Under the pieces are notes generated by a model. The model was not told the origin of the DNA. It searched no databases and was given only the letters and a program-made list of their open reading frames with translations. From the NCBI RefSeq assembly GCF_001984035.1, contig NZ_CP019449.1:2976001-3040000 (forward strand): a stretch of DNA of 64,000 bases. The letters run 5' to 3'. This document shows, in pieces, positions 10,580-47,052 of the stretch. The position numbers and the translations under genes were made by a program. Every line of letters starts with the position of its first letter. Position 1 is the first letter of the stretch. Origin of the DNA: Sphingopyxis sp. QXT-31. GTDB lineage: Bacteria > Pseudomonadota > Alphaproteobacteria > Sphingomonadales > Sphingomonadaceae.

Positions 10580-10580
10580 A

Positions 10581-10767: not shown

Positions 10768-10871
10768 GCGCCGTCACGCATTGCGATTAACCGTGCGCGC
10801 CATGCGGCAGCGGGTGGACAGCGCCCCCTGTTTCCAGCAGGATAGCGCATAGGCCACGGGGAGACACGGCA

Positions 10872-16706: not shown

Positions 16707-16770
16707 TGGTGCAAAGACGTACCTTTCCATCTCCGTCATGTGGTTGAAGCAATGCCCCTCAATCTGGATC

Positions 16771-16846
16771 GTCATCCCGGCGAAGGCCGGGATCTCGCCC
16801 TCGCCTTCTCATGCACCGGCGAGATCCCGGCCTTCGCCGGGATGAC
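16771..16846. repeat. Perfect 27-nt inverted repeat between the macroglobulin gene and pbpC
   Basis: Arms at 16771-16797 and 16820-16846 are perfect reverse complements with a 22-nt loop. Each arm begins or ends with GTCATCCCGGCGAAGGCCGG or its complement and is itself partly palindromic (CCCGGC-GAAG-GCCGGG). Elements like this are widespread in proteobacterial intergenic DNA. Here the right arm ends 5 nt before the GTG start of pbpC, so the hairpin would cover the ribosome-binding region of pbpC. Confidence 0.85.
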
Positions 16847-16851
16847 GAACA

Positions 16852-29384: not shown

Positions 29385-31964
<2,580 letters not shown>

Positions 31965-32111: not shown

Positions 32112-35100
32112 TTAAAGCCCCAGGCTCGCCAAATTCACCTTCACCCCGGCATAGACATAGCGCCCGCGGAAGCTCGACGGATAGTTGAGCTCGCCGACGT
32201 CGGGGTCGCGCCCGAAGAGGTTGTTCACGCCGGCATAGAACTGGAAGCGCTCGTCGTCGGTCTTGAAGCCGAGCTGGACGTCATGCTCCCATTTCTCGCG
32301 ATAGAAGATATACTTCGGATCGACGAGATCAGGGTTCGCCTCGATCTGCTCGGTGGTGAAGCGCCGCGTCTTGCTGAAATAATTGACGCCATAGTTCAGC
32401 GACCAATTGTCCTTCACCCAGGTGATGTCGAGCGTGCCGTTCCACTTCGGCGCGAACGCCTCGGTGCGGTCGTCGTCGACCTCGGCCCCCGGGGTCGAGA
32501 TGAACGTCAGCTTGTCGAGATAACCGCCCGCCAGCCGCACGTTGAACTGGCCCAGGCTGTCGCTCGGTCGGAAGGCGTAGTTGACCGTGAAGTCGGCGCC
32601 CGAGGTCGCGAATTCCGAGACGTTGAGCGGCCGCAACAGATAGTCCGAGACGAAGCCCGTCGTTGGATCGCGGGTGATCAGGTCGCAGAACTGGTTGTCG
32701 AGCGTCGGCTGGTCGACGCAGGCGTCGGCCAGATCCTGCGCCGTCGCCGTCGTGATCGCATTGGCGATCTTGATGTCGTACCAGTCGAAGGTCGCGACAA
32801 GCCCCGGAATGAAGCTCGGCCGCAGCACCACACCCGCGGTCCAGGTCTTGGCCGTTTCCTCATCGAGGAAGGGCGTGCCGATCGTGCGGCCCGGCAGCGA
32901 CGCGGTCGCCTGCGGGTCGTTCGCCGGATTGAAGGTCGCCGGATCGACGCCGAGCGCGGTCAGCGTCGCGTTGCAGTTCGCCACGCGGAACGACGTGCCT
33001 TCGGCGAGATTGCTGGGATCGCACGGATCGTCGATGAACGAGAAGGCGCCGTTCTGCGGGGCGAACAGTTCGGTCAGGTTCGGTGCGCGCACCGCTTCCG
33101 AATAGGTACCGCGGAAGCGGATATCGCGGACCGGACCCCAGGTACCATCGACCTTCCACGTCGTCGTGGTCCCGATCGTCGAATAGTCCGAGAAACGGAT
33201 CGCGGCGCCGAATTGCAATATGTCGGCGAAGGGCATGTCGCGCAGCACCGGAATGTTGATTTCGGCGAAAGCTTCCTTGACGTCGAAGCTGCCGCGTTCG
33301 GGGAATTGTGCCGCAAGGTCGGCGAGCGCATCCTGGACGAGGAAGGGGTCGGGGACGAAGTTCGACTTTTCCTTCCGGTATTCGGCGCCGAGCGCGAAAC
33401 CGATCGGCCCGCCGGGCAGTTCGAACACCGCGCCGGTGTCGCCCGAGATCGAGGCGCTGACGACATGCTGCTGGACCTTGATCCGGTTTTCGAGATCGAC
33501 GTTGATCCAGTCGAGCGCCGCGGCGCTCGGCGAACCTTCGCCGAAGATGTTGAGCGGCACGCAGCCGCTGTTCGCACCGGGGGTGAAGGTGATCGGCGTG
33601 GTGTCGGCCCCGATGATGATCCCATTGGGGTCGTTGCCGGGCGCGGTCGGATCGAGCGACGAGCGGCAGACGATATTGCCATTAGGCGTGCCCGTCAGGA
33701 ACTGGCCCTGGTCGACGGCGTCGATCGCGGCGAAATAGCGGTCGCGCAAGCGGTAATTGGTGCTCAGGAAGCGCGTCTTGGTCTGGCCATAGACATAGCT
33801 GACCTCATATTTGAGATTGTCGGTCAGTTCGCCGTCGACGCCGATCACCCCGCGATAGGTGTCGCGTTCGGCATATTCACCGCGCACGCCGAGGTCGAAA
33901 TTGTCGCGGCTGACGAGAACGCCGTCGGGAAGGAAGCCGACATCGCCGAAGATTCCGAGCGACAACGCATCGGGCACGATGGCGCCCCGGATCGCGGCGG
34001 GAATGAAGGGGTTGTCGGCCTGGATCGTGGTGAAGAAGTCGAACGACGGCTGCGCGAAGGAGAAATTCCTCGTCTTCACATATTTGGCTTCGACGAAGAA
34101 ACGGAGCGCGTCGCTGAACTCGTAGCTGCCGAGCAGATTGACATTATGCTTCTCGGTCTTGGGCTGGAGGTCGCCCTGATAGCCCGCGATCGGGGTGCTG
34201 CTGCCCCCCTGCACGACGCCGCCCGATCCCGGAATCGGCGTGCCGAGGTCGTAGATCGTCCCCTCGCCGGTGAAATCGGGCGAGAAGTCGATGTCGACGT
34301 CGACCGCGCCGCCGGGCGAGCTGTCGGCGTAGCGGATGTCGTTGTAGAGGATGCGGTCGACGATGCTCGGATCGTCGGGAAAGTCGGCGAGGTTGCGGCG
34401 GAAGCTGAACAGATCGAGGTTGCGCCCGGATTTGCGCGCGCTGGCGGGCACACGCGAATCGCGGTTATATTCGTACGACACCGCGATATTGCCGCGGTCG
34501 TCCGAGAAATTGGTCCCCGCGGTCAGCGAGCCGTAGATGTTGTTCGCGTCGCCGCGCGACGAGATGCCCGTCTGAAAGCGCGCGTCGATCCCTTCGAAAT
34601 CGCGCTTGAGCACGAAATTGACCACGCCCGACACGCCGTCGGCGCCATAGACCGCCGACACGCCGCCGGTGAGCACGTCGATGCGCTCGATCAGCGCATT
34701 GGGGATGGTGTTGATGTCGACCGACGCGGTGCCGGTGATGCCCGAGATATGGCGGCGGCCGTTGACCAGCACCAGCGTGCGTTCGGTGCCGAGGTTGCGC
34801 AGGTTGAGCAGGTTGATGCCCACCCCGCCGAACAGTGCGGTCGAACCGCCCGCATCGGCGGTGGTGCTCGACCCGAGCAGCGCGGGGTTCTGGACGAGCA
34901 GGTCGGTGAGGTTGGTGAGGCCCGACTGCTGGATCGTCTCGCTGTTGATCGAGGTCACGGGGTTGGGCGAATCGGCCTCGGGGCGCGCGATGCGCGATCC
35001 GGTGACGACGATGGCTTCGCCGTCGTCGGCGGTTTCGCCGGCTGCGGCCGCGCCAACGGGCGCCTCCTGCGCAACAGCGGGGGCGGCGGAGAGCGCCAGG

Positions 35101-35159
35101 GCGAGGGCGAGCGGCGCGGCGCCAAGGCGCAGGCTTCGCGAATCGACGAGTGTTTTCAC
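32112..35159 (-). CDS. TonB-dependent outer-membrane receptor 1
   Basis: 1015 residues. A signal peptide (LGAAPLALALALSAAPAVAQ) is followed by a short acidic segment and the plug domain opening EAIVVTGSRIARPEADSPNP, in which LVLVNGRRHISGI and YGADGVSGVVNFVLKRDFEG are plug blocks. The rest is a 22-strand barrel rich in aromatic girdles. The N-terminus resembles the second receptor at 41106-44144 (VVTGSRIARP). Such receptors import large scarce ligands with TonB energy. The C-terminal strand ends VNLASLGL, not in the usual terminal aromatic residue; a later aromatic may be lost. Ligand unknown; the flanking modification genes suggest a modified peptide or glycan. Confidence 0.9.
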   Translation of the reverse strand: MKTLVDSRSLRLGAAPLALALALSAAPAVAQEAPVGAAAAGETADDGEAIVVTGSRIARPEADSPNPVTSINSETIQQSGLTNLTDLLVQNPALLGSSTTADAGGSTALFGGVGINLLNLRNLGTERTLVLVNGRRHISGITGTASVDINTIPNALIERIDVLTGGVSAVYGADGVSGVVNFVLKRDFEGIDARFQTGISSRGDANNIYGSLTAGTNFSDDRGNIAVSYEYNRDSRVPASARKSGRNLDLFSFRRNLADFPDDPSIVDRILYNDIRYADSSPGGAVDVDIDFSPDFTGEGTIYDLGTPIPGSGGVVQGGSSTPIAGYQGDLQPKTEKHNVNLLGSYEFSDALRFFVEAKYVKTRNFSFAQPSFDFFTTIQADNPFIPAAIRGAIVPDALSLGIFGDVGFLPDGVLVSRDNFDLGVRGEYAERDTYRGVIGVDGELTDNLKYEVSYVYGQTKTRFLSTNYRLRDRYFAAIDAVDQGQFLTGTPNGNIVCRSSLDPTAPGNDPNGIIIGADTTPITFTPGANSGCVPLNIFGEGSPSAAALDWINVDLENRIKVQQHVVSASISGDTGAVFELPGGPIGFALGAEYRKEKSNFVPDPFLVQDALADLAAQFPERGSFDVKEAFAEINIPVLRDMPFADILQFGAAIRFSDYSTIGTTTTWKVDGTWGPVRDIRFRGTYSEAVRAPNLTELFAPQNGAFSFIDDPCDPSNLAEGTSFRVANCNATLTALGVDPATFNPANDPQATASLPGRTIGTPFLDEETAKTWTAGVVLRPSFIPGLVATFDWYDIKIANAITTATAQDLADACVDQPTLDNQFCDLITRDPTTGFVSDYLLRPLNVSEFATSGADFTVNYAFRPSDSLGQFNVRLAGGYLDKLTFISTPGAEVDDDRTEAFAPKWNGTLDITWVKDNWSLNYGVNYFSKTRRFTTEQIEANPDLVDPKYIFYREKWEHDVQLGFKTDDERFQFYAGVNNLFGRDPDVGELNYPSSFRGRYVYAGVKVNLASLGL

Positions 35160-35316: not shown

Positions 35317-35406
35317 TGTCGGGCGGCGATCGAAAAACAAGCCAAGACCGGCGAAGCGCCCTTGGGCTTCGACGAACGCCCGGTCGACACCATCGAAGGA
35401 GACTAG
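35317..35406 (+). pseudogene. Possible C-terminal gene remnant
   Basis: After an in-frame TGA at 35314 there are about 29 open codons with coding-like composition ending at TAG (35404). The reading AAIEKQAKTGEAPLGFDERP then VDTIEGD looks like the hydrophilic tail of a protein, but there is no start codon or upstream body. It could be the leftover of a deleted gene between the TonB receptor and hydroxylase genes. I do not recognise the parent family, and chance is a real alternative. Confidence 0.25.
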
Positions 35407-36005
35407 GCGGGCTGCCCGGTCAGCGCCGCGAGCCAGTCCGGTGCCGGCTGGTCGGCGTCATAATATTCGAAGATCAGGTGGATGCGCGGCGTATCGCCGC
35501 CGTTGGTCACCGCATGAACCCCCATATTATTGACCTCGGCCGCCTCGCCCTCGGCGATATGATAGGTCTGGCCGTCGATGCGGAAGAGCACCCGGTCGTT
35601 GGTCTCGATGGGGACATGGATCTTGTGCGGCCATTTCGCCGCGGGATTGGCGTCGCGGTGCGGCTGGATCACCCCGCCGGCCGGCATGCGCGCCAGCATC
35701 ACGCGGGGGAATATGCCGTTCTGATAGCCATAGTCCGCGGTCGCCGCCGCCATCACCGGCGCGAGCAGCGCCTCCCACTCGTCCCACAGCGGCCGCGCAT
35801 AGTCGGTGCGCCAGTCGCGCATGTTCGCAACGAAGCGAAAGACGATATGCGCGGTGGCGTCGAGCGCCTCGAACCGGTTCGGCTTGTCGGCATTCTCGGC
35901 CTGCCACAATGTTTCCGGAATCGCCGCCACCGCCTGCTTGAGCGCGGCGATGTCGACGCTGCCGAGGCGCCGGATGCTCGTCGTCTTGCGGGGATTGGGG
36001 TACAT
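35403..36005 (-). CDS. Aspartyl/asparaginyl beta-hydroxylase-type oxygenase 1
   Basis: 200-residue soluble Fe(II)/2-oxoglutarate oxygenase of the Asp_Arg_Hydrox family. The metal ligands are His116 and Asp118 (QPHRDANPAAKW) and His164 (NNMGVHAVTN). Arg174 (in TPRIHLIFEY) should bind the 2-oxoglutarate carboxylate. The double-stranded beta-helix core is complete (RVMLARMPAGGVIQPHRD, HKIHVPIETNDRVLFRIDG). The likely substrate is an Asp, Asn or similar side chain in a peptide, but small-molecule hydroxylation is possible. It is the last gene of a four-gene unit running 37870 to 35403 on the minus strand. It shares the fold but little sequence with the second hydroxylase in the unit. Confidence 0.82.
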   Translation of the reverse strand: MYPNPRKTTSIRRLGSVDIAALKQAVAAIPETLWQAENADKPNRFEALDATAHIVFRFVANMRDWRTDYARPLWDEWEALLAPVMAAATADYGYQNGIFPRVMLARMPAGGVIQPHRDANPAAKWPHKIHVPIETNDRVLFRIDGQTYHIAEGEAAEVNNMGVHAVTNGGDTPRIHLIFEYYDADQPAPDWLAALTGQPA

Positions 36006-36021
36006 GGCTCAGCCTCTCCGG

Positions 36022-36645
36022 TCAGTAATCATAGCCGAAAAGCGCCAGATCGCGGGCATAGATTTTCGCGACGCCGTCGATCAGCTCCTGGTCGTAATAG
36101 TCGCGATAGTCGCCGCGCCGCGACCGGTTGGCATGGTCGAGCGCGGTCGTCGGAACGCCGATGCGCGCCGCGATCGCGTCGTACGACGCCTGCATCTCCT
36201 CGACCTTGCCGAGCATGTCGGCCTGCAGGCTGCCGCCCTGATCGGTGACGAACAGGTGCTGCGGGCGAAAGATGATGTGGTTCATCGGTGGCGCGGTGAA
36301 CAGGAAATGCCGCATCACGCGCTTCGGATCGCGATCGAAACTGCCCTCGCGGCTGGTGGCGAAGGCGCAGTAGGAGACGAAGCGATCGAACGGATTGCGC
36401 ACGAAGGCGAATTTGAAATAGCTCTGGAACGCCTCTTCGCCGAGGAAGGGCCGGACCTCGGCGAAGCTGATATGGCCGTGCCCCATGCGCGCAATCTCGG
36501 GGATCGGGAAGCTCTTCTCGACGAACAGCCGCGCCTGCTCCATGTCCTCCTCGCCCATATGCCCGCGCAGCGCATGCCGCACCGAATGCGTCCCCGTCTT
36601 GGGAATCGCGACGAAGATGAAGCGGTGCTTGTGCGAAACGATCAT
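36022..36645 (-). CDS. Small PAPS-type sulfotransferase
   Basis: 207 residues of the Sulfotransfer_2 type. The 5'-phosphosulfate loop PKTGTHS is at residues 15-21 (FVAIPKTGTHSVRHAL), and the 3'-phosphate motif is RNPFDRFVSYC (83-93). The Arg-Asn-Pro-Phe-x-Arg pattern is typical of carbohydrate or peptide sulfotransferases in this family. It would transfer sulfate from PAPS to a hydroxyl or amine group. No PAPS-making genes are in the window. The start ATG at 36645 lies 8 nt after the upstream hydroxylase stop codon; the longer open frame upstream is the wrong-frame image of that gene. Third gene of the four-gene unit. Confidence 0.82.
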   Translation of the reverse strand: MIVSHKHRFIFVAIPKTGTHSVRHALRGHMGEEDMEQARLFVEKSFPIPEIARMGHGHISFAEVRPFLGEEAFQSYFKFAFVRNPFDRFVSYCAFATSREGSFDRDPKRVMRHFLFTAPPMNHIIFRPQHLFVTDQGGSLQADMLGKVEEMQASYDAIAARIGVPTTALDHANRSRRGDYRDYYDQELIDGVAKIYARDLALFGYDY

Positions 36646-36653
36646 CGGGCGGG

Positions 36654-37610
36654 TCAGGCCGCGGCGGCGGCGGGAGCGGCGTTCGGTGCGGCGACCATGA
36701 AGACGAGCTCGGCGAGCGCGCGCTCGAGCGGTACCTCGTTGCCGATGAGCAGGATGCGCTGCGCCCCGATCCGCTGCAGGTCGCGCTGGACCGCCTCGAT
36801 GAGCGCGCGATAGGCGGCGAGCCCCCTGGTGTCGGTGCCATGTTGCGCCCAGAGCGCGCCCCAGGCGTTGGCGAACTGCTCGAGCCGCTCGGTCGCCGCA
36901 TCGAGCGCGGGCGACGGCGGGCATTGCCGGAGCAGGAAATCGACATGGCAGCGGATCTCCCACACCGACATGATCGCGGGCAGGTTGACCTGCTCATAAG
37001 CGAGCGGCGTGGCATAGCCGACCGAGCCCGGCGCCACCGTCTCGATCGGCTGCGCGTCGCGGCCATGGCGCTTCGCCTCGGCGATCATCGCCCATAATTT
37101 CTCGCCGCCGACGGTGTCGAGCACCAGATGGACGCGCTTCTGGTCGCCGGCATTCTTCACATTATGGAGGCAGAAGCTGTCGAACAGCCAGCATTCGCCC
37201 GGCGCCATATGCACCGTCTCGCTGTCGCAGCTGAAGGCGACCCCCGGATTGGTCACGACGGGAATATGGATGCGGATGTGCGTCCGCCAATAATAACCGA
37301 CGTCGACATGCTCGGGCACCACCGCGCCCGGCGCGAGCCCCATCAACCGGCTGCGTCCCCATACCGCGCCGAGATCGGCGAGGATTTCCTTGATATAGGG
37401 GCAGCGATCGAGCGCATCGGTCGGCGCCATCGGCCCCGCGAAGCCGTTCGACACCTGCCCCGCCGGGGTGATCAGCGGCACCGCATCGTTGCCGGGCAGC
37501 CGCCCCGGATGCGGCAGCCACGCCGATTGGGGCAGCGCCGCCACCTCTTTTGCCAGCGTTTCCGCACAATATTGCCGCGGCAATTTGACCAGCGGCGTCC
37601 CGAGCTTCAT
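36654..37610 (-). CDS. Aspartyl/asparaginyl beta-hydroxylase-type oxygenase 2
   Basis: 318 residues. The N-terminal 165 form the oxygenase: His101 and Asp103 (VVPEHVDVGYYWRTH), His149 (FCLHNVKNA) and Arg159 (KRVHLVLD) are the predicted Fe and 2-oxoglutarate ligands. It has a longer helical C-terminal half than the first hydroxylase (about residues 200-318), ending in an Ala-rich tail, that I do not recognise. The ATG at 37610 overlaps the stop of the upstream small exported protein gene by 4 nt (ATGA), which fixes the start and shows coupled translation. Second gene of the four-gene unit. Confidence 0.82.
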   Translation of the reverse strand: MKLGTPLVKLPRQYCAETLAKEVAALPQSAWLPHPGRLPGNDAVPLITPAGQVSNGFAGPMAPTDALDRCPYIKEILADLGAVWGRSRLMGLAPGAVVPEHVDVGYYWRTHIRIHIPVVTNPGVAFSCDSETVHMAPGECWLFDSFCLHNVKNAGDQKRVHLVLDTVGGEKLWAMIAEAKRHGRDAQPIETVAPGSVGYATPLAYEQVNLPAIMSVWEIRCHVDFLLRQCPPSPALDAATERLEQFANAWGALWAQHGTDTRGLAAYRALIEAVQRDLQRIGAQRILLIGNEVPLERALAELVFMVAAPNAAPAAAAA

Positions 37611-37870
37611 TCGCCGGGCCGCGTCGGCTGGTAATTCTGCTGCGGCCGGTTGACCTGCTCGGCCAGTCCGCGCCTTTGCTCCTCGGCCATCGCCTCCCAC
37701 TGGCCCCCGGTCTTGCAGATCTTGGTGTAGAAGCGCGTCCCCGTCTTCTGCGTGCGCTTGCACACCATCCGGTCCTTGGGATCGACGTTCGCGCCGTCCT
37801 CGGCAAAGGCGGGCACGGCGGGAAGCAGCGAGGCGGTGGCGAGCAGCGCCAGCATTTGAATTCCGCGCAT
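37607..37870 (-). CDS. Small exported two-cysteine protein 1
   Basis: 87 residues with a Sec signal peptide (IQMLALLATASLLPAVPAFA, cleavage likely before EDG). The mature part has the core VDPKDRMVCKRTQKTGTRFY, then TKICKTGGQWEAMAE, with Cys37 and Cys52 separated by 14 residues and likely disulfide-bonded in the periplasm. The tail is AEQVNRPQQNYQPTRPGE. A paralogue is at 38720-38980 with the same core and spacing. It is first in the four-gene unit and overlaps the hydroxylase gene by 4 nt, so it may be the substrate or a partner of the modification enzymes. That role is inference; no family function is known to me. Confidence 0.75.
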   Translation of the reverse strand: MRGIQMLALLATASLLPAVPAFAEDGANVDPKDRMVCKRTQKTGTRFYTKICKTGGQWEAMAEEQRRGLAEQVNRPQQNYQPTRPGE

Positions 37871-37983
37871 GACAGCATGTCTCCAAAACAATATCGATTG
37901 GCGCGGAACATATTCCCCCGGTAGCCGGCCTGTCAAATCGATGTGTGCCGGAAAGCCGCGGGAAACGAAGGAAATGATCGACC

Positions 37984-38700
37984 ATGGCCCTGGACTTTCG
38001 GCTGTCCGACGATCTCGACTGGGACGTGCTGCGCCGGCAGTTCGCGGTGCGCGGCCGCGTCGAGATCGCCGGCCTGCTCGCCGAGGGCCAAGCCGAGGCG
38101 CTACGCGCGCATCTCGGCGCACGGACCGACTGGAAACTGGTGATGAATGCCGGCGACAAGGTCTATGAGATGACGCGCGATGCCCTGGCCGCGCTCACGC
38201 CCGATCAGCGCCGAGCGCTCGAACGCCATATCGTCGATGCCGGCCGCGAAGGCTTTCAATATCGCTACGAGTCGATCCGCGCGCCCGACGGCGGCGACGC
38301 GGCCAGCGCCGACCCGGTGGCGCGCTTCGTCGCCTTCCTCTCCGCCCCCGCAGTGATCGAGCGGCTGAACCATGTCCTCGGCGGCGGCAGCGCCACCTTC
38401 GCCGACGGCCAGGCGACCAGCTATGACGAGGGGCATTTCCTGACCGCGCACGACGACGATGTCGCGGGCAAGCGGCGGCAGGCGGCCTATGTCTATTCGC
38501 TGATGCCGCGCTGGCGGCCCGAATGGGGCGGATTGCTGCTGTTCCACGGCGACGACGGCGGCATCGACGAGGGCTTTGCGCCGCAGATGAACGCGCTGCG
38601 GCTCTTCGCGGTGCCGCAGCTGCACAGCGTGAGCTATGTCACGCCCTTCGCGCGCGAACCGCGGCTGTCGATCACCGGCTGGCTGCGCGCGCGCGGCTGA
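37984..38700 (+). CDS. Prolyl 4-hydroxylase-type 2OG-Fe(II) oxygenase
   Basis: 238 residues. The C-terminal half is a P4Hc-like double-stranded beta helix: His156 and Asp158 (GHFLTAHDDD), His214 (PQLHSVSYV) and Arg227 (EPRLSITGW) are the Fe and 2-oxoglutarate ligands. The block YSLMPRWRPEWGGLLLFHGD is family-typical. The N-terminal half (1-95) is helical. It could hydroxylate proline or another residue in a peptide; the substrate cannot be read. It is divergent from the four-gene unit, sharing a 113-bp intergenic region, and converges with the second small exported protein gene. Confidence 0.82.
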   Translation: MALDFRLSDDLDWDVLRRQFAVRGRVEIAGLLAEGQAEALRAHLGARTDWKLVMNAGDKVYEMTRDALAALTPDQRRALERHIVDAGREGFQYRYESIRAPDGGDAASADPVARFVAFLSAPAVIERLNHVLGGGSATFADGQATSYDEGHFLTAHDDDVAGKRRQAAYVYSLMPRWRPEWGGLLLFHGDDGGIDEGFAPQMNALRLFAVPQLHSVSYVTPFAREPRLSITGWLRARG

Positions 38701-38719
38701 CCGCCGCGGCGGCCGCCGA

Positions 38720-38980
38720 TCAGTTGCGGCGGATTTCGATCTGCGGCCGGTCGATCGCTTCGCGCAGGTCGCGCCGATGCTGTTCGGCGAGCGCATCCCA
38801 CTGCGCCGCGGTCTTGCAAATCTTCTTGAAGAAGCGGGTGCCGGTCGCCTGCTGACGCTTGCACACCAACTTGTCCTTCGGGTCGACCGCGACTGCCTCT
38901 TCGTCGTTTGGCGATGCGAGCGCGGGAACCGACAGCAGCGGCGCCGACACCATCACGGCGAGCAGGTGGATGGCACGCAT
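38720..38980 (-). CDS. Small exported two-cysteine protein 2
   Basis: 86 residues with a signal peptide (IHLLAVMVSAPLLSVPALA). The mature core VDPKDKLVCKRQQATGTRFF then KKICKTAAQWDALAEQ parallels the protein at 37607-37870, with Cys40 and Cys55 again 14 residues apart. The tail REAIDRPQIEIRRN shares the DRPQ or NRPQ element with the paralogue and then differs. It lies downstream of the TPR-sulfotransferase gene on the same strand (67-nt gap). As for its paralogue, a link to the modifying enzymes is inferred only from position and duplication. Confidence 0.75.
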   Translation of the reverse strand: MRAIHLLAVMVSAPLLSVPALASPNDEEAVAVDPKDKLVCKRQQATGTRFFKKICKTAAQWDALAEQHRRDLREAIDRPQIEIRRN

Positions 38981-39047
38981 GAACAACCTCCCTTTGAACA
39001 TCGCAAAGCTATTCGCTTGGCGTCCCGGCGTCAATTCGGTCCGGCGG

Positions 39048-41036
39048 TCAGTCGAGACGATAGCCATAGCGCTCGACCCACGGCGCGAGGATCGGCAGCA
39101 CTTCGCGCATCTGCGCCTCGTAGCGCTTCCAGCGCCCGCTCGCCGACGAATAGATGGGCTCGAGCACCTGCGCATAGCTCGGCGTGCGGATATAGCCGCG
39201 CGCCGCGGCGGTCTTCTGGTGGTCGAGCGCATCCTCTTCCCAATCGAGACCGAGGAAGTCGAACAGCGGCCGCGTCGCCGCGCCCGCGTCGGCGACCATC
39301 GCCTCGTAACGCAGCATATGCATATCGATCGGGAAGACCGCCCGGCACGTCTCCCAATAATGGAAGATGCGGTCGTAGGTGCGGCTGGCGTTGGCGAGGT
39401 CGAGGAAGCTCGCCATCGCCTCGGTCGGCTTGAAATTCTGGATATAGCAGCTGAGCACGACGTCGCACGGATGACGCATCGCGAGGATGATCTTCGCGTC
39501 GGGAAACAGCCGGTGGATCAGCGGAATGCGGATCATCGACAGCGGATTCTTGTCGATCACCAGCTTGCCGGGCGGCGGGGGCGACAATTTGTCGAGTTCG
39601 GCGAAATAGCGGCGGCGCAGATCGGCAACCGCGGCGGCGTCGAGCGCGCGGATCGCGTCGAGATCGCCGAGCGACTTCGACAGGCCCTCGATGATCGGCA
39701 GCTCCTCGAGCACATGCGCGCCGCTGTTGCCCATCAGGATCGTGTCGAGCAGCGTCGTCCCCGAGCGCGGAAAACCGACGAGGAAGGCCGGTGCGGGGCG
39801 TTCGGCGGGCAGCGGCGGCGCGGCCCAGTCGGCGAACCACGCCGGCGTCGTCTGCTCGTCGAGGCGCGCGATCGCGCGCTGGTACGCGCTGCGGTCGACC
39901 CCGACGCCCATCGGGCTGCGCGCCTGCGCCTGGTTCATATCCTCGTAGAAATACATCGCATCGTCGGTGCGGCCGAGGCGATCGGCAAGCTGCCCCGCGA
40001 ATTGCGCCTTGATCGACGGATTGATCGCGGGCGATTGCAGGTCGCGCACGAGGTCGAGCGCCGCGGCGCGGTCGCCGTCGCGGCTGAGCAGCAGCGCGCG
40101 CAGATAATCGATCTCGTCGCCCGCGAGTCCCGCCGCCTCGGCCGCGGCGATCAGCGCGCGCAGTTCGTCGACGCGGTTGGCCTTTTCGAACAGGATGCCG
40201 AGGTTGAGGTAGCCGGGGACGAAGCGCGGATCGGCGTTGACCGCGAAGCGCAGCGCGCGTTCGGCCTGGGCATTATTCTCGAGATCGAGGAAGGCGACCG
40301 CGATCGCGAGGAAGATCTTGGGATCGGAGGGGGCGAGCCGCGCCGCGTCGCCGAGCGCGCGGAGACCTGCTTCGACATGGTTGATGCTCGTCAGCGTCCG
40401 CCCCAGCTCGAGCAGCGGCGCCGGATCCTTGGGTGCGAGCAGCGCCGCCTTTTCGAGCAGCAGGCACGCCTCCTCATAGCGGTCCATCGAGATCAGCACG
40501 CGGCCCATATTGGTGTGGAGGAGCGACGATTGCGCGTCGATCTGCCGCGCCTGCTGCAGCGCCTGCAGCGCGCCCTCGAGATCGCCCATCTCGTGCCGCG
40601 CATTGCCCAGATTGTTCCAGGCATCGAAGTCCTTCGGATTTTCGGAGACGAGCTTTTCATAGGCCCAGACCGCTTCGGTGGTGCGGCCTTGCGCCTTCAT
40701 GATCTGAGCCTGCATCGACTGCAAGTCGGCCGATCCGGCAAGGTCGCCCTCGGCGCAGACACGCGCCGCCTCGTCGAACTCGCCAAGGTCGGACAGCGCA
40801 CGCGCCAGGTTGATCCGGTTGTCGCTCGTGTCGCCGCCATGTGCGATCGCGCGGCGCAGATAGTCGGCGCCCTGCCGCGGCGCGCCGGTCTGGCAGCTCA
40901 CGACGCCGAGCAGCTGGAGGACGGTGGGATTGGTCGGCTGGGCGGCCAGCGCGGCTTCGCCCTGCGCCTTTGCCGCGGCGAAATCGCCCTTGGCATAGGC
41001 GGCATAAGCGGCGCGCAATCTGTCGGTAACGGTCAT
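39048..41036 (-). CDS. TPR-repeat sulfotransferase
   Basis: 662 residues. The N-terminal 400 or so are helical TPR-like repeats (for example DLQSMQAQIMKAQGRTTEAV and NLGNARHEMGDLEGALQALQ), a protein-binding scaffold. The C-terminal third is a sulfotransferase domain: the PAPS 5'-loop FPRSGTTLLDTIL (from residue 422) and the 3'-motif RHPCDVVLSCYIQ. This architecture is common in sphingomonads and caulobacters, often beside TonB receptors, and its substrate is unknown; the TPR part suggests a protein or peptide target. Start ATG at 41036 with AGGGAGC upstream. The receptor terminator ends only 13 nt before the start, so the gene has almost no room for its own promoter. Confidence 0.87.
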   Translation of the reverse strand: MTVTDRLRAAYAAYAKGDFAAAKAQGEAALAAQPTNPTVLQLLGVVSCQTGAPRQGADYLRRAIAHGGDTSDNRINLARALSDLGEFDEAARVCAEGDLAGSADLQSMQAQIMKAQGRTTEAVWAYEKLVSENPKDFDAWNNLGNARHEMGDLEGALQALQQARQIDAQSSLLHTNMGRVLISMDRYEEACLLLEKAALLAPKDPAPLLELGRTLTSINHVEAGLRALGDAARLAPSDPKIFLAIAVAFLDLENNAQAERALRFAVNADPRFVPGYLNLGILFEKANRVDELRALIAAAEAAGLAGDEIDYLRALLLSRDGDRAAALDLVRDLQSPAINPSIKAQFAGQLADRLGRTDDAMYFYEDMNQAQARSPMGVGVDRSAYQRAIARLDEQTTPAWFADWAAPPLPAERPAPAFLVGFPRSGTTLLDTILMGNSGAHVLEELPIIEGLSKSLGDLDAIRALDAAAVADLRRRYFAELDKLSPPPPGKLVIDKNPLSMIRIPLIHRLFPDAKIILAMRHPCDVVLSCYIQNFKPTEAMASFLDLANASRTYDRIFHYWETCRAVFPIDMHMLRYEAMVADAGAATRPLFDFLGLDWEEDALDHQKTAAARGYIRTPSYAQVLEPIYSSASGRWKRYEAQMREVLPILAPWVERYGYRLD

Positions 41037-41049
41037 CGCCGCTCCCTAT

Positions 41050-41082
41050 AAAAAAAGAGGGCGGGACACCAGTCCCGCCCTC
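41050..41082 (-). terminator. Strong rho-independent terminator after TonB receptor 2
   Basis: An 11-bp perfect stem (GAGGGCGGGAC at 41057-41067 pairing with GTCCCGCCCTC at 41072-41082) has a 4-nt loop and is followed on the minus strand by seven Ts (41056-41050). It lies 23 nt after the receptor stop codon and 13 nt before the TPR-sulfotransferase start. Confidence 0.9.
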
Positions 41083-41105
41083 TCCTTTGGTTCGTTTGCC
41101 GAAGC

Positions 41106-44100
41106 TTAGAACTTCAGGCGGACCGACGCATAAGCGCGGCGGCCGATGACGTCGTACAGCGACGGATCGGTACCCGACTGCACGTTCGGCGAGTAGGTTT
41201 CCGGCTTGCGGTCGAACGCGTTGTTCAGGCCGATGCGGAAGGTGAAGGCGTCGATTTCGGCCTGCATCGCAAAGTCGAAATAGAAGACGCTACCCGGGCC
41301 GGTGAACTCTTCGCCGATAAACTGACGCGAGGCCCGGTTTTCCATCGCATCGATGAAGCGGATGCGGCTGTCGAAGCTCAGTTCACGCGTGACGTTGAAC
41401 TTGGTGTTGAGCGTCGCCTTCCAGCGCGGGAAGCTCGTGCCGAGACCCGCACCGAAGTAGGAGGCCGTACCCGCATAATCGGTCTTCAGACCGCCGAGGC
41501 CGACGTTCTTGAAGTCGATGAGGTAGTTGACGAGCAGGTTGAAGCTCAGCGCGCTGTCTTCGTTCACGAACTCGGTCGGCAGGCGATAACCCAGCTGGAC
41601 GTCGACGCCCGAGGTCTTGACCGACCCGGCGTTGACGAACTGGAAATAGCCGTTCGCATCACCGCCCAGCGAAGCCGGGAGGTAGATACCCGTCATCGCA
41701 TCGCCCGACCGCCCGATTGCATCGCAATAGGGGCTCGCGCCGCTGAGGTTCGGGTTGATGTCATTGTAGCCATAGCAGGACGCGATGATCTCGTTGACGT
41801 CGGGGTTGAGGATCGTGTCCTTGATCTTGATGTTGTAATAATCGATCGAGCCCGTGAAACCGGCGGCCTGGAACACCGCACCGACGGTGAAGGTGTCCGA
41901 TTTTTCCGGCTTCAGGTTGGGGTTGCCCGTCGTCGTGATGAACGCCTGCGCGCCCGGCGAGGGAACGAAGCTGTTCACAGTACCCGCGCCAACGCCGGTC
42001 GCGACGCAAAGGTCGCGGGCCGCGGTGCCGCCCTGCTGGCGGAAGTTCGAGTTGATCGAGCAGGGGTCGAAGATCTGCGGGAAGCTGCCGCCGCCCGAGA
42101 ACAGCTCGCCGAAGTTCGGCGCACGGACCGAGTGCTGATAGCTCGCACGCAGACGGACTTCGTCGATCGGGCTCCAGGTGATGGTGCTACCATAGGTCCA
42201 GTCGTTCGACGGCGCACCGTTCACGCCATTCTGGATATCGTTGAAGTCGCTCTTCGAGTGACGAGCGGTCAGCGACAGTTCCAGCGTGTCCATGATCGGG
42301 GCACGAAGTTCGCCGAAGAAGTCGAGGAACTTGTTGGTGCCGAGATCGGGCGTCGCGGTGTTGAAGCCGGCGATCGGACCGAACAGCGAGCCCGGATCGA
42401 AGCTGTACTTGAACTTGCGCTGCTCGACACCGAGCACGACGCCGAGCGGGCCGCCCGGCAGGTCGGTGAGTTCGCCCGAGACATAGGCCTGAGCGACCTT
42501 CTGCGTGAAGACCGTCTTGGTCACGCCCGTTTCGTCGACATAATCGACGCAGTCGGCCGAGAAGGGCTGGATGCCGAACGGGTTGAAGCCGCCGTCGCAG
42601 ATGCTGACGCCGCCGTCGGGTGCTTCGAGCAGTTCCTGGACGCGCTGGACGTTGACGTTGCCCGTGGCGCGCTGGTCGATCGTGGTTTCGCCCCAGCTGT
42701 AATAGGCTTCGTAGCGCCAGCCGGGTGCGAATTCGCCGCGCAGACCGGCGAGGCCCTGGATCACACGGTTGTCGAGCTGCTGCTCGCGCAGGCCGGTGCC
42801 GAGGAAGCGGTAACCGATGCGGACGCCTTCGGCCGCACCGACACCCGCGACGTTCGGATCGTCACCGACGCGCGTGTTGAGCAGCGAACGCAGGTCGTTC
42901 GAGATGAACGGGTTGGTGACCGGCACGATGAAGCCGGTGACGCGGCCGCCGACCGAAACGAGCGGCGAGCGCGCGTTGAGGCCCGAAGCGGCGGTGTTCG
43001 CCGGGTTGACGATGCCGGTGCTGACCGGGGTCGGCGCCAGCGCCGTTGCCGAACTGTAGTCGGTGTAACCACCCTGGACGAACACGTCGAACGCCGGATT
43101 GATCTCGTAATTCGCCGTCAGGAACGCCGATTTGCGCTCGAGCGGGAGAACGAGGATGTTCACGATGTCGAAGTTGTAGCTGTAGAAGTCCGGGAAGAAG
43201 TTGAGGTTCGGGTTCGCCGGCGAATCGAGATCGTAGCGGAAGTTCGCCACGTCGAGCGGACTGTTGAACGCACCTCGGCCGAACAGCGAGCCATCCGAGT
43301 TGAAACCGAGCTGGCTGACCGTCGGGGTCTGTCCGGGCGTGACGCCATAACCGGCGAACAGGGTGTTCACCGCGGCCTGGCTGATCGGGTTAGTACCGCT
43401 GTTGACGAAGGTGCCGGTCGGGAACGAACCCGTGGTCGAGGTCGCCTGCGACGCGAAGTCGCGCTGCGCCTTGATCAGGCCCTGGCGCTTCGAATATTCG
43501 GCCGAGAAGGCGATGTTGCCGCGGCCGTCGGCAAAGTTGCCGCCGATGATGCCGCTAATCTGATATTCGCGCGCGTCGGTCTCGGGGATCGAGTTCGAAT
43601 AGGTGGCGCGAAGGTCGATGCCTTCGAAATTGTCCTTGAGGATCAGGTTGACGACGCCCGCGATCGCGTCGGCGCCGTAAGCCGCGCCGGCGCCGCCGGT
43701 CACGATTTCGATGCGCTCGATCAGGCCCTGCGGAATGGTGTTCAAGTCGACCGTCTGGTTCGACGCCGACACCATCGGGCGACGGCCGTTGATCAGGACG
43801 AGGTTGCGGTTGGCGCCGAGGCCGCGAAGGTCGATGTTCGACTGGCCGCCGTTACCGGGGTTGTTCGACGTGGTCGTGCCGGCCGGGTTGACCTGCGGCA
43901 GCGTGTTCAGGAAGGTGTCGAGCGTGACGTCGGCGTTCTCGACCGTCGCGTCGCCGCTGACGACAGCAACCGGGCTGTTCGAATCGAGATTCGGACGCGC
44001 GATACGCGAACCGGTGACGACGATCGTGGCTTCGCCTTCGTCGTCGGCGGCATCCTGCGCATAGGCAGGCGCCGAAGCCAGGGCCACGCTCAGCACCAGC

Positions 44101-44144
44101 GGCGCGGCGCCCAGTTTCAGCTTGGAATATTGGGTTTTCTTCAC
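41106..44144 (-). CDS. TonB-dependent outer-membrane receptor 2
   Basis: 1012 residues. Signal peptide LKLGAAPLVLSVALASAPAYAQ, acidic linker, then the plug opening TIVVTGSRIARPNLDSNSPV, with NLVLINGRRPMVSASNQTVD and YGADAIAGVVNLILKDNFEG. The barrel runs to a canonical C-terminal strand ending ASVRLKF, with the terminal Phe needed for outer-membrane assembly. Start is GTG at 44144 with AAGGGAC upstream; the open frame continuing to 44222 is not signal-like. It is related to receptor 1 (32112-35159). A 260-bp gap upstream, with no recognisable gene, must hold its promoter. Ligand unknown. Confidence 0.92.
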   Translation of the reverse strand: MKKTQYSKLKLGAAPLVLSVALASAPAYAQDAADDEGEATIVVTGSRIARPNLDSNSPVAVVSGDATVENADVTLDTFLNTLPQVNPAGTTTSNNPGNGGQSNIDLRGLGANRNLVLINGRRPMVSASNQTVDLNTIPQGLIERIEIVTGGAGAAYGADAIAGVVNLILKDNFEGIDLRATYSNSIPETDAREYQISGIIGGNFADGRGNIAFSAEYSKRQGLIKAQRDFASQATSTTGSFPTGTFVNSGTNPISQAAVNTLFAGYGVTPGQTPTVSQLGFNSDGSLFGRGAFNSPLDVANFRYDLDSPANPNLNFFPDFYSYNFDIVNILVLPLERKSAFLTANYEINPAFDVFVQGGYTDYSSATALAPTPVSTGIVNPANTAASGLNARSPLVSVGGRVTGFIVPVTNPFISNDLRSLLNTRVGDDPNVAGVGAAEGVRIGYRFLGTGLREQQLDNRVIQGLAGLRGEFAPGWRYEAYYSWGETTIDQRATGNVNVQRVQELLEAPDGGVSICDGGFNPFGIQPFSADCVDYVDETGVTKTVFTQKVAQAYVSGELTDLPGGPLGVVLGVEQRKFKYSFDPGSLFGPIAGFNTATPDLGTNKFLDFFGELRAPIMDTLELSLTARHSKSDFNDIQNGVNGAPSNDWTYGSTITWSPIDEVRLRASYQHSVRAPNFGELFSGGGSFPQIFDPCSINSNFRQQGGTAARDLCVATGVGAGTVNSFVPSPGAQAFITTTGNPNLKPEKSDTFTVGAVFQAAGFTGSIDYYNIKIKDTILNPDVNEIIASCYGYNDINPNLSGASPYCDAIGRSGDAMTGIYLPASLGGDANGYFQFVNAGSVKTSGVDVQLGYRLPTEFVNEDSALSFNLLVNYLIDFKNVGLGGLKTDYAGTASYFGAGLGTSFPRWKATLNTKFNVTRELSFDSRIRFIDAMENRASRQFIGEEFTGPGSVFYFDFAMQAEIDAFTFRIGLNNAFDRKPETYSPNVQSGTDPSLYDVIGRRAYASVRLKF

Positions 44145-44404: not shown

Positions 44405-45337
44405 TCAGCCGCCCATCGGGCCCGCCAGCTTGGCCGGATCGATCCGCGCGTCGCCCCATTTCATGCCCCAATGCATGTGCGGCCCCGTGGCCCGGCCCGT
44501 GCGGCCGACCGTACCCAGCACCTGCCCTTGGACGACGCGGTCGCCGACCTTCACGTCGAGCCGCTGGCAGTGGAGGAAGGCGCTGTTCAGCCCCATGCCG
44601 TGATCGACGATCAGCAGATTGCCCTCGAGCGTGAAGGGCGACGCAGCCGCGAGCACGACCACGCCGTCGGCCGGCGCGACGAAGGGCGTGCCCGCGGGCA
44701 CCGCGATATCGGCGCCGCTGTGGTAGCTTCCGGGCTTGCCCTGATAGACGCGCTGCGACCCGAAATAGCCCGAGCGGCGCCCGGTCACCGGCCAGATAAA
44801 GCGCTGGCGCCAGCCCTCCGATGCCTGGTCGACGGCCCGCGCGGCGGCGATCTGTGCGAGCTCGGCGGGGCGGCGTCGTTCGAAATCGGCGTCGCTCGCC
44901 GCACTACCCCGATAGGGCGCGTTGATATGCTCGAGGCGCCAGGCACCGGGCGCGACGGCCAGCGCCCGCTCGATCCGGCGCCCGTCGACGAGCGTCGCGA
45001 CCAGCTGCGCCGACGGCCCGGCATCGCGGTCGAAGGCGATCAGGAAGGCGCCGTCGGGGGCGAGCGCGACGGGCTTGCCGTCGAGCGCCAGCAACCGGGT
45101 GCCGGTCGGCGCCTGCCCGAGCATCGCGGCGCCCTGTTCGGCGAGGCCGCGCAGCGCGAAGTCGCGCGCGACGGGGGCGGGCGGCGCAGGCGGCGGAGGG
45201 GCCGGCCGTTCGACGACCACGGGAGGCGGCGGCGGAGCCACGGTGGCCGCGCCGTTCCCGGGCGGGATGCAGCTGGTCGGAATCGTCAGCAGCGCCAGCG
45301 CGATCGCGCCGCGCGGCCAATCCGTCGCGAAACTCAT
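44405..45337 (-). CDS. M23 murein peptidase, likely lipoprotein
   Basis: 310 residues. N-terminal membrane segment IALALLTIPTSC with a near-lipobox cysteine, then a Pro-rich linker (about residues 35-55). The C-terminal half is an M23 lysostaphin-type metallopeptidase: the zinc motif HSGADIAVP (His-x3-Asp) and HMHWGM (His-x-His), plus ANDG-like glycine loops (VAPADGVVVLAAASPFTLEG). It would cut peptidoglycan cross-links or act as a degenerate activator. The ATG at 45337 overlaps the DUF2093 stop codon by 4 nt. Cotranscription with DUF2093 and possibly xseA is likely. The lipobox is atypical, so a plain signal anchor is the alternative. Confidence 0.85.
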   Translation of the reverse strand: MSFATDWPRGAIALALLTIPTSCIPPGNGAATVAPPPPPVVVERPAPPPPAPPAPVARDFALRGLAEQGAAMLGQAPTGTRLLALDGKPVALAPDGAFLIAFDRDAGPSAQLVATLVDGRRIERALAVAPGAWRLEHINAPYRGSAASDADFERRRPAELAQIAAARAVDQASEGWRQRFIWPVTGRRSGYFGSQRVYQGKPGSYHSGADIAVPAGTPFVAPADGVVVLAAASPFTLEGNLLIVDHGMGLNSAFLHCQRLDVKVGDRVVQGQVLGTVGRTGRATGPHMHWGMKWGDARIDPAKLAGPMGG

Positions 45338-45540
45338 GCGCGGTGGTCGAGCGCGGCCTTCACCGAAATCGCGGCGCTCGCATAGGGCTCCTGCCGCGCG
45401 ACCGACCAGTAGCGTAGCTCGTCGAGCCCGATCGGCGCGCCGCTGACCGCGCACAAAACATGGTCGCCGGGCGACAGGATACGAAAGCCGTTGGGGCCGT
45501 AGTGGAGGCGGGCGAGGCGGTTGCGGCTGGCGATCAGCAT
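45334..45540 (-). CDS. DUF2093 family protein
   Basis: 68 residues matching DUF2093 from end to end: ASRNRLARLHYGPNGFRILS, PGDHVLCAVSGAPIGLDELR and YWSVARQEPYASA. The family is small, cytoplasmic and of unknown function, and in alphaproteobacteria it is often next to xseA, as here (87 nt). The last codons overlap the M23 peptidase start. Confidence 0.88.
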   Translation of the reverse strand: MLIASRNRLARLHYGPNGFRILSPGDHVLCAVSGAPIGLDELRYWSVARQEPYASAAISVKAALDHRA

Positions 45541-45627
45541 GAGTCTGGTTCCGGTGCGGGAGAGGCGGTCGCCCCGATCATAGCAGCATCGCGCCTCATC
45601 GCCACCCCCGCGGTCAGCCCCGCCCGA

Positions 45628-47052
45628 TCAGAAGAGCTCGCCCTGCCCCCGGCCCGGCGCAGCGGGCGGCTTCTTCGCCGCCGGTTTCGCGGCAGCGGTA
45701 GGCGGCGGCGCACCCTCGCCCGCCACGGCGGCGACCTCGCCGTCGGCGAAGGCCAGCCGCAAATGCCCCGCGGCGACGGCCCTCGCGGCGGTCGGGACGA
45801 TCGCCCCCTCGGCGTCGCGCACCATCGCATAACCGCGCGACAGCAAGGCGCGCGGATCGAGCGACGTCAGCAGCCGCCCCAGTCCTTCGAGCAGAGCGCG
45901 GTCGCGGTCCCAGCGCCGCACGAGCAGCGCCGGGCGCAGCGCTCCCGCGCGCGTCGCGAGCCGCTCCGACACCACGGTCAGCCGCTGCCGCTGCGCGCGA
46001 CCCAGCCGGTCGGCCGCATCGTCGAGCCTTTGCCGCTGCGGCGCATAAAGCGCCTCGCGCTTGGGCAAATGCCGCGCCAGCGCCGTGAGCCGCTCGCCCG
46101 CCAGCGCCTGCCGGCGGTTCGCCGCGCCGATCATCCGCCCGCCCCAGCCGGCGAGGATTTCCTGCAGCTCGGCGCGCACCGGCACCGCGATCTCGGCCGC
46201 CGCCGTCGGGGTCGGCGCGCGGCGGTCGGCGGCATAGTCGGCGAGCGTCGTATCGGTCTCGTGCCCGACCGCGCTGATCGTCGGGATGCGGCAGTCGGCG
46301 ATCGCGCGCACGACGACCTCCTCGTTGAAAGCCCACAGATCCTCGATCGACCCGCCGCCGCGCGCGACGATGACGAGGTCGGGGCGCGGCACCGCTCCCC
46401 CTGGTTCGATCGCATCGAAACCGCGCACCGCATTCGCCACCTGCGCCGCGGCGCCGTCGCCTTGCACCAGCACCGGCCAGACGATGACGCGCGTCGGGCA
46501 GCGGTCGGCGAGGCGGTGGAGGATGTCGCGGATCACCGCACCCGTCGGCGAGGTCACGACGCCGATCACGCGCGGCAGATAGGGCAAGGCCTGCTTGCGC
46601 CCCTGGTCGAACAGCCCCTCCGCGCCGAGCCGCGCCTTCAATTTCTCGAAGAGCAGCATCAGCGCGCCCTCGCCCGCGACCTCCAGGCTTTCGACGACGA
46701 GCTGATATTTCGAGCGCCCCGGATAGGTGGTGAGCTTGCCGGTTGCGATCACCTCGATCCCGTCCTCGGGGCGGAAGGCGAGGCGCGCCGCCTGCCCCTT
46801 CCACATCACCATGTCGATCAGTGCATTATCGTCCTTGAGCGCGGCATAGAAATGCCCCGACGCCGCGCGCTTCGTCCCCGACAGCTCGCCGCGCACGCGC
46901 ACGCGCGCAAAGCCGTCCTCGACCGTGCGCTTGATCGCCGCCGACAATTGGCTGACGGACAGTTCGGGTGCATTGTCCCCCGGCGCCGCCTCGGCTAACA
47001 GCCGCGCCGCGGGGTCGGTTTCGGACACCGGATCGGGAAAAGGAACGGTCAT
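45628..47052 (-). CDS. xseA: Exodeoxyribonuclease VII large subunit
   Basis: 474 residues. With XseB it degrades single-stranded DNA from both ends. Residues 30-115 form the OB-fold DNA-binding domain ([20 protein letters not shown]). The catalytic domain holds [20 protein letters not shown] and [16 protein letters not shown], followed by [20 protein letters not shown] and the coiled-coil arm. The C-terminal tail is Ala/Pro/Lys-rich and disordered. Start ATG at 47052 is inside the same CATG as the divergent purD start, so the two start codons overlap. xseB is not visible in the window. Confidence 0.93.

Follow-up and report, generated by a model that had tools for sequence, protein, structure and literature searches.

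A conserved TonB receptor-linked island of hydroxylases and sulfotransferases in sphingomonads

Oxygenases encoded beside TonB-dependent receptors, such as CciO, PiuC, and YbiX, are a standing puzzle, their substrate being unsettled, and a locus of Sphingopyxis sp. QXT-31 poses this puzzle in a richer form: what do three oxygenases, two sulfotransferases, and two small exported proteins do next to such receptors? The locus lies within a 64,000-nucleotide stretch of contig NZ_CP019449.1 (positions 2,976,001 to 3,040,000), hereafter the window, from the first nucleotide of which its coordinates are counted. An earlier note on this DNA had proposed a dedicated system that makes a hydroxylated and sulfated product taken up through two flanking receptors. 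We found that this receptor-linked hydroxylation-sulfation island is genuine and conserved, that it includes one of the two receptors, and that it lacks a description in the literature searched.

Gene content and layout of the island

The nine genes of the cluster are present in the window in the positions and order proposed, and the identities assigned to the receptors and enzymes in the earlier note were borne out by Pfam domain matches. We denote them by letters:

41106..44144, minus strand: H, TonB-dependent receptor of 1012 amino acids (PF07715 and PF00593)
39048..41036, minus strand: G, tetratricopeptide repeat (TPR)-sulfotransferase of 662 amino acids (TPR and PF13469, 112 bits)
38720..38980, minus strand: F, small exported two-cysteine protein of 86 amino acids, paralogue of D
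37984..38700, plus strand: E, 2-oxoglutarate (2OG)-Fe(II) oxygenase of 238 amino acids, OGFOD1/Tpa1-like (PF13661/PF13640)
37607..37870, minus strand: D, small exported two-cysteine protein of 87 amino acids, opening the D-C-B-A series
36654..37610, minus strand: C, PF05118 hydroxylase of 318 amino acids with a helical C-terminal extension (67.1 bits)
36022..36645, minus strand: B, 3'-phosphoadenosine-5'-phosphosulfate (PAPS) sulfotransferase (Sulfotransfer_2) of 207 amino acids (PF03567, 59.6 bits)
35403..36005, minus strand: A, PF05118 hydroxylase of 200 amino acids (46.8 bits)
32112..35159, minus strand: R, second TonB-dependent receptor, 1015 amino acids (PF07715 and PF00593), a neighbor outside the conserved set

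E is encoded on the strand opposite to that of the other cluster genes. D, C, B, and A form a tight series, with a 4-base overlap (ATGA) between D and C and gaps of 8 and 16 nucleotides between C and B and between B and A, respectively, in agreement with the four-gene operon (37870 to 35403) predicted previously; H and G are separated by 69 nucleotides, and G and F by 67. Scans of the nine proteins against Pfam and NCBIfam detected no transporter besides the receptors, no peptidase, and no scaffold-making enzyme. Manufacture of a product at this locus followed by its import through H is therefore one model among several.

Conservation of the gene set

An alignment of C led to 22 loci with a C relative in named genome records, 12 of which (L016-L024 and L026-L028) carry the set. 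Judging by the record titles, these 12 loci come from Sphingopyxis, Sphingorhabdus, Sphingomonas, Rhizorhabdus, and one Sphingomonadaceae bacterium, so that the co-occurrence anticipated for sphingomonad genomes does extend beyond QXT-31 to several genera. Among the loci whose contigs extend far enough, H was found in 9 of 9, G in 11 of 11, and E in 12 of 12 (partial in L017); B, A (truncated in L023, where the contig ends), and small proteins are present in all 12. In four loci (L024 and L026-L028), the run E-C-B-A faces a run consisting of the small protein, G, and H; in this second arrangement, the set has thus survived rearrangement. Between the window and L024, identity is 75% for H, the best conserved part of the set, 70% for A, 68% for B, 56% for E, and 53% for both C and G (83% for ClpB). 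Across the nine loci where it is readable (only in part in L026 and in two pieces in L027), H is 72-96% identical.

The two receptors are related yet distant (315 of 904 aligned residues identical) and differ in their conservation. The place of R next to clpB is readable in 10 loci; R is present in L016 and L018 and absent in L019, L020, L021, L022, L024, L026, L027, and L028. With R found in 2 of these 10 loci, we rejected it as a member of the system. Thus, the cluster does lie between two TonB receptors in the window, as the earlier note observed, but only H is conserved with the set, and the claim that both receptors serve the system had to be abandoned. The gene set is conserved beyond chance; H belongs to it, and R does not.

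The set is patchily distributed: B was found in 9 of the 147 genomes of the order (E ≤ 1e-10, with some matches weak) and in none of six genomes of the same genus. The remaining 10 C-type loci contain no orthologue of A, B, H, or G. In five of these (L025, L029, L032, L036, and L037), a sulfotransferase gene recognized by profile directly follows C, and the other five were judged by eye to lack an adjoining one. The C-type gene comes after an L7/L12-like gene in all eight loci L030-L037, and an RpoB-like gene lies further on in five of the eight (L031, L032, L034, L036, and L037); these names were assigned by eye.

Predicted activities of the enzymes

C and A belong to the PF05118 family: both score above its cut-off of 22.6 bits, and the HxD...H...R residues are invariant in all 22 aligned C sequences (H101, D103, H149, and R159) and all nine aligned A sequences (H116, D118, H164, and R174). 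H156, D158, H214, and R227 of E are likewise invariant in all nine aligned E sequences. In these families, such residues bind iron and 2OG. The nearest solved relative of C and A by sequence is L-proline cis-4-hydroxylase, which is also nearest to C by fold in a predicted-structure search, followed by proline 3-hydroxylase, a nucleoside-pathway hydroxylase, and human AspH. The fold match of C to PiuC, the sole direct comparison with that protein, is weak (E 3e-5). The nearest solved relatives of E are OGFOD1/Tpa1 (E 4e-9), which reportedly hydroxylate a ribosomal-protein proline; no NCBIfam family matched E at E ≤ 0.01.

Among solved structures, the catalytic domain of G is nearest to the human protein-tyrosine sulfotransferases, aligning with TPST1 at E 3e-10 over residues 8-250 of 253, including the PAPS-binding motif PRSGTTL. 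G therefore appears to be a TPST-like sulfotransferase, the acceptor of which may be tyrosine. The nearest solved relatives of both G and E act on proteins. The KTGTHS and VRNPF stretches of B are kept in nine window-type B sequences; by sequence, no sulfotransferase among solved structures matched B at E ≤ 1, and its best match there, a fusion of MBP and endoglin (E 0.006), was taken as chance. A directly follows B in the window, in the 12 loci, and in the two loci described next (L055 and L275). A sulfotransferase 33.5% identical to full-length B is encoded by Stenotrophomonas phage vB_SmaS-DLP_6 (KU682439.2, 38223-38828).

An enzyme quartet and a lasso-peptide cluster

A Sphingomonadaceae contig (L055, genome G146) and plasmid pASDW145_1 of Asticcacaulis sp. 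DW145 (L275) each encode a TonB receptor followed by B, A, a TPR-sulfotransferase, and a C-type hydroxylase. Identity to the window proteins is 61-62% for B, 64-66% for A, 27-29% for the TPR-sulfotransferase (catalytic domain), and 43-49% for the C-type enzyme where aligned; Pfam confirms the TPR-sulfotransferases, the receptors, and the PF05118 domains of the C-type genes. Neither a small protein (E ≤ 0.01) nor E (E ≤ 1e-5) was detected in either locus. Over 905 residues, the receptors of L055 and L275 share 70% identity, and their identity to H is only about 25%, over some 155 residues; thus, the quartet goes with its own receptor type. In L275 (8707-10500, minus strand), a C-type domain and a PF13469 sulfotransferase are encoded in one uninterrupted frame of 597 codons with ATG second; in the record, whose gene table for the plasmid is incomplete, the annotated gene covers the sulfotransferase portion alone. 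This fusion, the sulfotransferase genes adjoining C elsewhere, and the constant B-A pair suggest that a hydroxylase and a sulfotransferase act sequentially on one substrate.

In a different setting, QXT-31 itself encodes further proteins of the A and B types, paralogues with about 45% and about 40% identity to A and B, respectively:

G000:C1:3860000-3879500, 4503-17484: L039, lasso-peptide cluster

This cluster includes a PqqD protein, a lasso B2 protein (86.4 bits against an NCBIfam cut-off of 33), an Asn-synthase-like cyclase, an HprK-like kinase (below cut-offs), GT8, NTP_transf_5, and JmjC_2 proteins, four sulfotransferase-family genes, a PF05118 hydroxylase, and a 46-residue precursor candidate at 9525-9665 (minus strand). 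L056 is a similar lasso cluster; its candidate precursor and that of L039 share a Phe-Tyr close to the end and a Ser as the last residue. In this setting, the A/B-type enzymes are therefore linked to peptide tailoring.

The small two-cysteine proteins

The paralogues D and F, identical in 45 of 91 alignment columns, each have a signal-peptide-like start (judged by eye) and two cysteines in the mature part, and neither matches Pfam or NCBIfam at E ≤ 0.01. Their family numbers 194 proteins at E ≤ 0.001, and among the best 120 of these 194, all with a named organism come from sphingomonads. C37 and C52 of D are invariant in 50 sequences. The AlphaFold model of D consists of a beta hairpin (35-41/48-54) and a helix (55-73), with the two cysteines on facing strands of the hairpin (register counted by hand), and a search with this predicted fold returned no matches at E ≤ 0.001. 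The confidently predicted part is followed by a tail that contains an [N/D]-x-Pro motif. This motif is present in the tail of 18 of the 19 small proteins from the window and the 12 A/B/C-type loci, compared to 4 of 25 small-protein rows from other loci (23 distinct proteins, two being counted twice because L097 and L207 overlap; a match was obtained in 19 of the 21 loci compared). Tyrosine is absent from F and from the small proteins of L024 and L026-L028.

As the quartet and its receptor occur in L055 and L275 without a recognized small protein, such proteins cannot be an obligatory substrate, and we lowered our assessment of them as the sole one. In L094, a DUF6065 protein is encoded (11069-11809) between the slot receptor and the small protein.

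TPR-sulfotransferases and receptors across the order

The profile of G matches 112 of the 147 genomes of the order (E ≤ 1e-20; a few matches cover the TPR part only). We examined 40 regions from 37 genomes around G-type genes, comprising the 20 best with sufficient room and 20 from further down the list. A receptor gene lies within 500 bases of the G-type gene in 17 regions, within 5 kb in 30, and anywhere in the stretch in 32, whereas of 20 control stretches, one from each of 20 of these genomes and placed at round coordinates, 1 contains a receptor (Fisher p=1.8e-8 against 32 of 40, counted over regions many of which represent the clpB slot described below). Both G-type genes of QXT-31 adjoin a receptor. 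This genome has 64 TonB receptor matches in all, and 20 regions around 24 of its other receptor genes yielded no match to the G, A, B, C, E, or small-protein profiles. In L199, L203, and L204 of QXT-31, other TonB receptors lie beside tryptophan-halogenase-like genes, and L199 also holds SapC-like and cupin-like genes (all by eye); perhaps, these represent a second kind of receptor-linked modifying enzymes.

In a draw from the order, a TPR-sulfotransferase and a receptor lie within 1.5 kb of each other in 10 of 29 loci, compared to 0 of 29 in a draw from the class, for which the receptor profile was built from sphingomonad sequences and may miss distant receptors. That the linkage extends beyond the order is evident from the L275 plasmid, which belongs to Caulobacterales. 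In a tree of 68 receptors, the linked state requires 8 changes, compared to 18.4 with shuffled labels (the sampling favored linked receptors). At other places, a second receptor clade (11 rows, including a 780-residue receptor of QXT-31 itself, in L038) also occurs paired with TPR-sulfotransferases.

The receptor slot between clpB and xseA

The island is flanked by the following genes:

29385..31964, plus strand: clpB, left border of the receptor slot
44405..47052, minus strand: right border of the slot, with genes for what we take, from their sequences, to be an M23 peptidase, a DUF2093-type protein, and xseA

For a survey of this slot, we took the sequence 3' of clpB, at most 17.7 kb long and less in three cases, from 40 other genomes. 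A draw across genera had given 57 genomes with a clpB match, of which these 40, with G180 and G157 left out, scored best. Relatives of at least one of the three right-border genes are present in 12 of the 40 stretches, and such relatives also lie beyond H in several long A/B/C-type loci. By profile, 32 slots contain a TonB receptor, or 33 when family 28 is counted, two scanned members of which have CarboxypepD_reg and outer-membrane-barrel domains, with a Plug domain over the cut-off in L240.

As linked families, we counted TPR-sulfotransferases, PF05118 proteins, E-type oxygenases, TPR-PF13759 proteins, and a family of about 341 residues. Linked families are present in 22 of the 40 slots, all 22 with a receptor; 11 slots have a receptor alone and 7 have neither (Fisher p=0.0017). 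Omission of the 341-residue family leaves this result unchanged. Small proteins are found in 10 slots, all with a receptor and 8 with linked families (p=0.08). Gene content differs strongly between genera and includes TPR-PF05118 and TPR-PF13759 proteins; in two of the six same-genus genomes in which B was not found (G097 and G035; L118 and L206), the same place holds a TPR-sulfotransferase, a TPR-PF05118 protein, a 341-residue protein, and a TonB receptor. The clpB-xseA interval is thus a common receptor slot in which relatives keep differing enzyme sets.

Two families of the slot can be described further. The 341-residue family, without a Pfam match, occurs eight times in the survey, distributed over six slots (L206, L210, L214, L220, L225, and L227) that all contain a receptor; examples of the family are:

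L118, 11208-12233
L105, 7607-8632
L225, 1019-2032

A small-protein family with an ACYD-like stretch (by eye; median 167 residues) is present in L209 (9632-10039) and 13 other slots; when one member was scanned, NCBIfam gave no match and Pfam none above the cut-off.

A possible receptor-coupled modification system

We tentatively propose, at a confidence somewhat short of probable, that the island specifies a system, coupled to the receptor, for the hydroxylation and subsequent sulfation of a polypeptide. Residues of this polypeptide would be hydroxylated in the cytoplasm by C, A, and E, the 2OG oxygenases; the two PAPS sulfotransferases, B (which pairs with A) and G, would sulfate the resulting hydroxyls or tyrosines, with the TPR arm of G, joined to its TPST-like catalytic domain, possibly holding the peptide. 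The modified chain would then be exported through Sec and work at the outer membrane with H. The first candidate acceptor is the precursor of H, modified before export in the way HMW1C and the autotransporter heptosyltransferases modify adhesins of adjacent genes, and the second is D/F, with the conserved [N/D]-x-Pro tail. The receptor precursor is ranked first because a TonB receptor is the most constant non-enzyme neighbor. A polypeptide substrate is favored because TPR arms occur on sulfotransferases and on PF05118 and PF13759 oxygenases, because proteins are the substrates of the closest structurally solved relatives of G and E, and because paralogues of A and B are found in a lasso-peptide cluster, whereas no scaffold-making enzyme is encoded among the nine genes. 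What is observed directly is that the set is conserved, that a receptor is its constant partner, that hydroxylase-sulfotransferase pairs recur, and that active-site residues are kept; the order of the reactions, the polypeptide nature and identity of the substrate, and an effect on uptake are what the scheme predicts. The system for a hydroxylated and sulfated product put forward in the earlier note is thereby retained in part, given the conservation of the set, the kinship of G and E to protein-modifying enzymes, and the constant TonB receptor, without R as a member and without the small proteins as an obligatory substrate.

In its boldest form, which we regard as rather unlikely, the proposal would be that sphingomonads modify the TonB receptors themselves, using exchangeable cytoplasmic hydroxylase/sulfotransferase sets kept in one slot to act on the receptor chain ahead of export and thereby determine receptor binding. 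If true, TonB receptors would have a post-translational modification system of their own, and sulfated hydroxy-residues would be a new bacterial protein mark; no precedent for TonB receptor modification was found in the literature searched. Any product of the paired enzymes would carry mass tags of +16, +80, and +96 Da and would bear on the function of bacterial TPR-sulfotransferases, found by the G profile in 112 of 147 genomes of the order.

Several observations weigh against a receptor-coupled polypeptide modification system. The slot association depends on how it is counted: receptors accompany linked families in 21 of 22 slots without family 28 (p=0.014); in 21 of 22 at 12 kb (p=0.0055), or 19 of 22 without family 28 (p=0.040); and in 19 of 20 at 10 kb (p=0.020), or 17 of 20 without family 28 (p=0.16). 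The receptor of L212 lies 12 kb away, beyond xseA, 11 of the 33 receptor slots have no recognized linked family, and the 40 G-type regions are not independent, given that many are this same slot. In the receptors, no modification-site motif was recognized in 26 linked compared to 13 unlinked sequences, and none of the 17 columns specific to the linked clade (including D206, N324, N329, P334, C695, and C807 of H) was singled out as a target site. Acidic-Tyr sites number 2.5 and 1.5 per 1000 residues in 47 linked and 21 unlinked receptors, respectively (p=0.27, hence no significant enrichment), the latter drawn mainly from one genome; tyrosine content is higher in the linked receptors (4.4% compared to 3.4%; p=3e-4, a statistic that ignores kinship). 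The L056 precursor contains no Asp or Asn after RTR, so that A-type enzymes need not act on these residues. Finally, the nearest solved relatives of C and A, by their names, hydroxylate free proline, and a small-molecule substrate is therefore possible.

The last point leads to the main rival explanation, which we consider somewhat unlikely, namely, that the ligand of H (a small iron chelator, a peptide, or a sulfated or hydroxylated nutrient) is produced or altered by the enzymes and then imported by H, a role also proposed for the oxygenases next to CciT, PiuA, and Fiu. The closest studied case points this way: iron import by CciT needs the oxygenase CciO, and three ligand-centered models are offered (PMC12004947 and PMC12004943). 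The PF05118 proteins nearest to C and A by sequence or fold act on free proline, as noted, and the 75% identity of H to its L024 counterpart is what would be expected of a receptor for one fixed ligand. On the other hand, no scaffold-making gene is present among the nine proteins or the scanned slot families, and the TPR arms together with the TPST and OGFOD1 kinship point to protein substrates. At the opposite end, the enzymes might have no functional tie to H at all, the clpB-xseA interval being an old hotspot for receptors and unrelated accessory genes. The strong variation of slot content between genera and the loss of significance under the strictest counting (p=0.16) are compatible with such hitch-hiking. 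It nonetheless appears very improbable, given that the quartet lies beside a 70%-conserved receptor at unrelated places (the L055 contig and the L275 plasmid), that an independent receptor clade (11 rows) is also paired with TPR-sulfotransferases elsewhere, and that the window-type set kept H through rearrangement.

Within the polypeptide proposal, D and F could be the dedicated substrates, their tails being hydroxylated and perhaps sulfated before Sec export to yield secreted or receptor-bound peptides. The presence of small proteins in the window and all 12 A/B/C-type loci, the four-base overlap of D with C, and the enrichment of the [N/D]-x-Pro tail (18 of 19 compared to 4 of 25 rows) argue for this possibility, which is still improbable in our estimate and constitutes a share of the probability assigned to a polypeptide acceptor of any kind, not an addition to it. 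The quartet loci L055 and L275 lack a small protein at E ≤ 0.01, no recognized small protein is present in 14 of the 22 slots with linked families, and 2 of the 10 small-protein slots lack a linked family. Moreover, F has no tyrosine to offer, and the shared tail could be explained by ancestry alone; L094 encodes a small protein with this tail even though A, B, and C are absent.

Relation to known systems

No published system of a TonB receptor and sulfotransferases was recognized in the literature searched, which was thin on subscription journals and bioRxiv; several known systems share parts of the island. CciT/CciO of Caulobacter, PiuA/PiuC of Pseudomonas, and Fiu/YbiX of Escherichia coli are alike in that a TonB receptor is conserved beside a 2OG oxygenase, a pairing found here in both the A/B/C-type loci and the slot survey. 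The island differs in encoding three oxygenases of two other families (E is nearest to OGFOD1/Tpa1, and A and C belong to PF05118, rather than to the PiuC/YbiX family), two sulfotransferases, and small exported proteins. Furthermore, no iron link is known for this locus.

Lasso clusters make ribosomally synthesized and post-translationally modified peptides, and the example in QXT-31, L039, contains A and B paralogues; one report (PMC10040529) tabulates the components of an L039-like lasso-type cluster. In another lasso cluster, the linear precursor is the substrate of the iron/2OG hydroxylase CanE, and for lasso clusters of Firmicutes, the same report notes a putative sulfotransferase gene (PMC8498205). 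The nine window proteins include no PqqD, B2, Asn-synthase-like cyclase, or lasso-type precursor, all of which are present in L039 (the precursor as a candidate).

Peptide tyrosine sulfation by RaxST of Xanthomonas is similar in that a bacterial PAPS sulfotransferase is dedicated to an exported polypeptide; RaxX belongs to this Rax system. The island adds hydroxylases and has a TonB receptor as the constant partner; its small proteins often lack tyrosine, so that no conserved tyrosine of the Rax type is present, and no dedicated exporter gene was detected among the nine proteins by Pfam or NCBIfam.

Among eukaryotic enzymes, C and A share PF05118 with human AspH, and some slot relatives combine TPR with PF05118, like AspH. 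AspH reportedly lacks the carboxylate of the H-x-D triad, whereas the bacterial A and C keep H-x-D...H. G shares the TPST-like catalytic domain with TPST1/2, and E shares kinship with OGFOD1/Tpa1. HMW1C and the autotransporter heptosyltransferases are cytoplasmic enzymes that modify surface adhesins encoded by neighboring genes before Sec export. They are glycosyltransferases acting on adhesins, whereas the enzymes of the island are hydroxylases and sulfotransferases accompanied by a TonB receptor.

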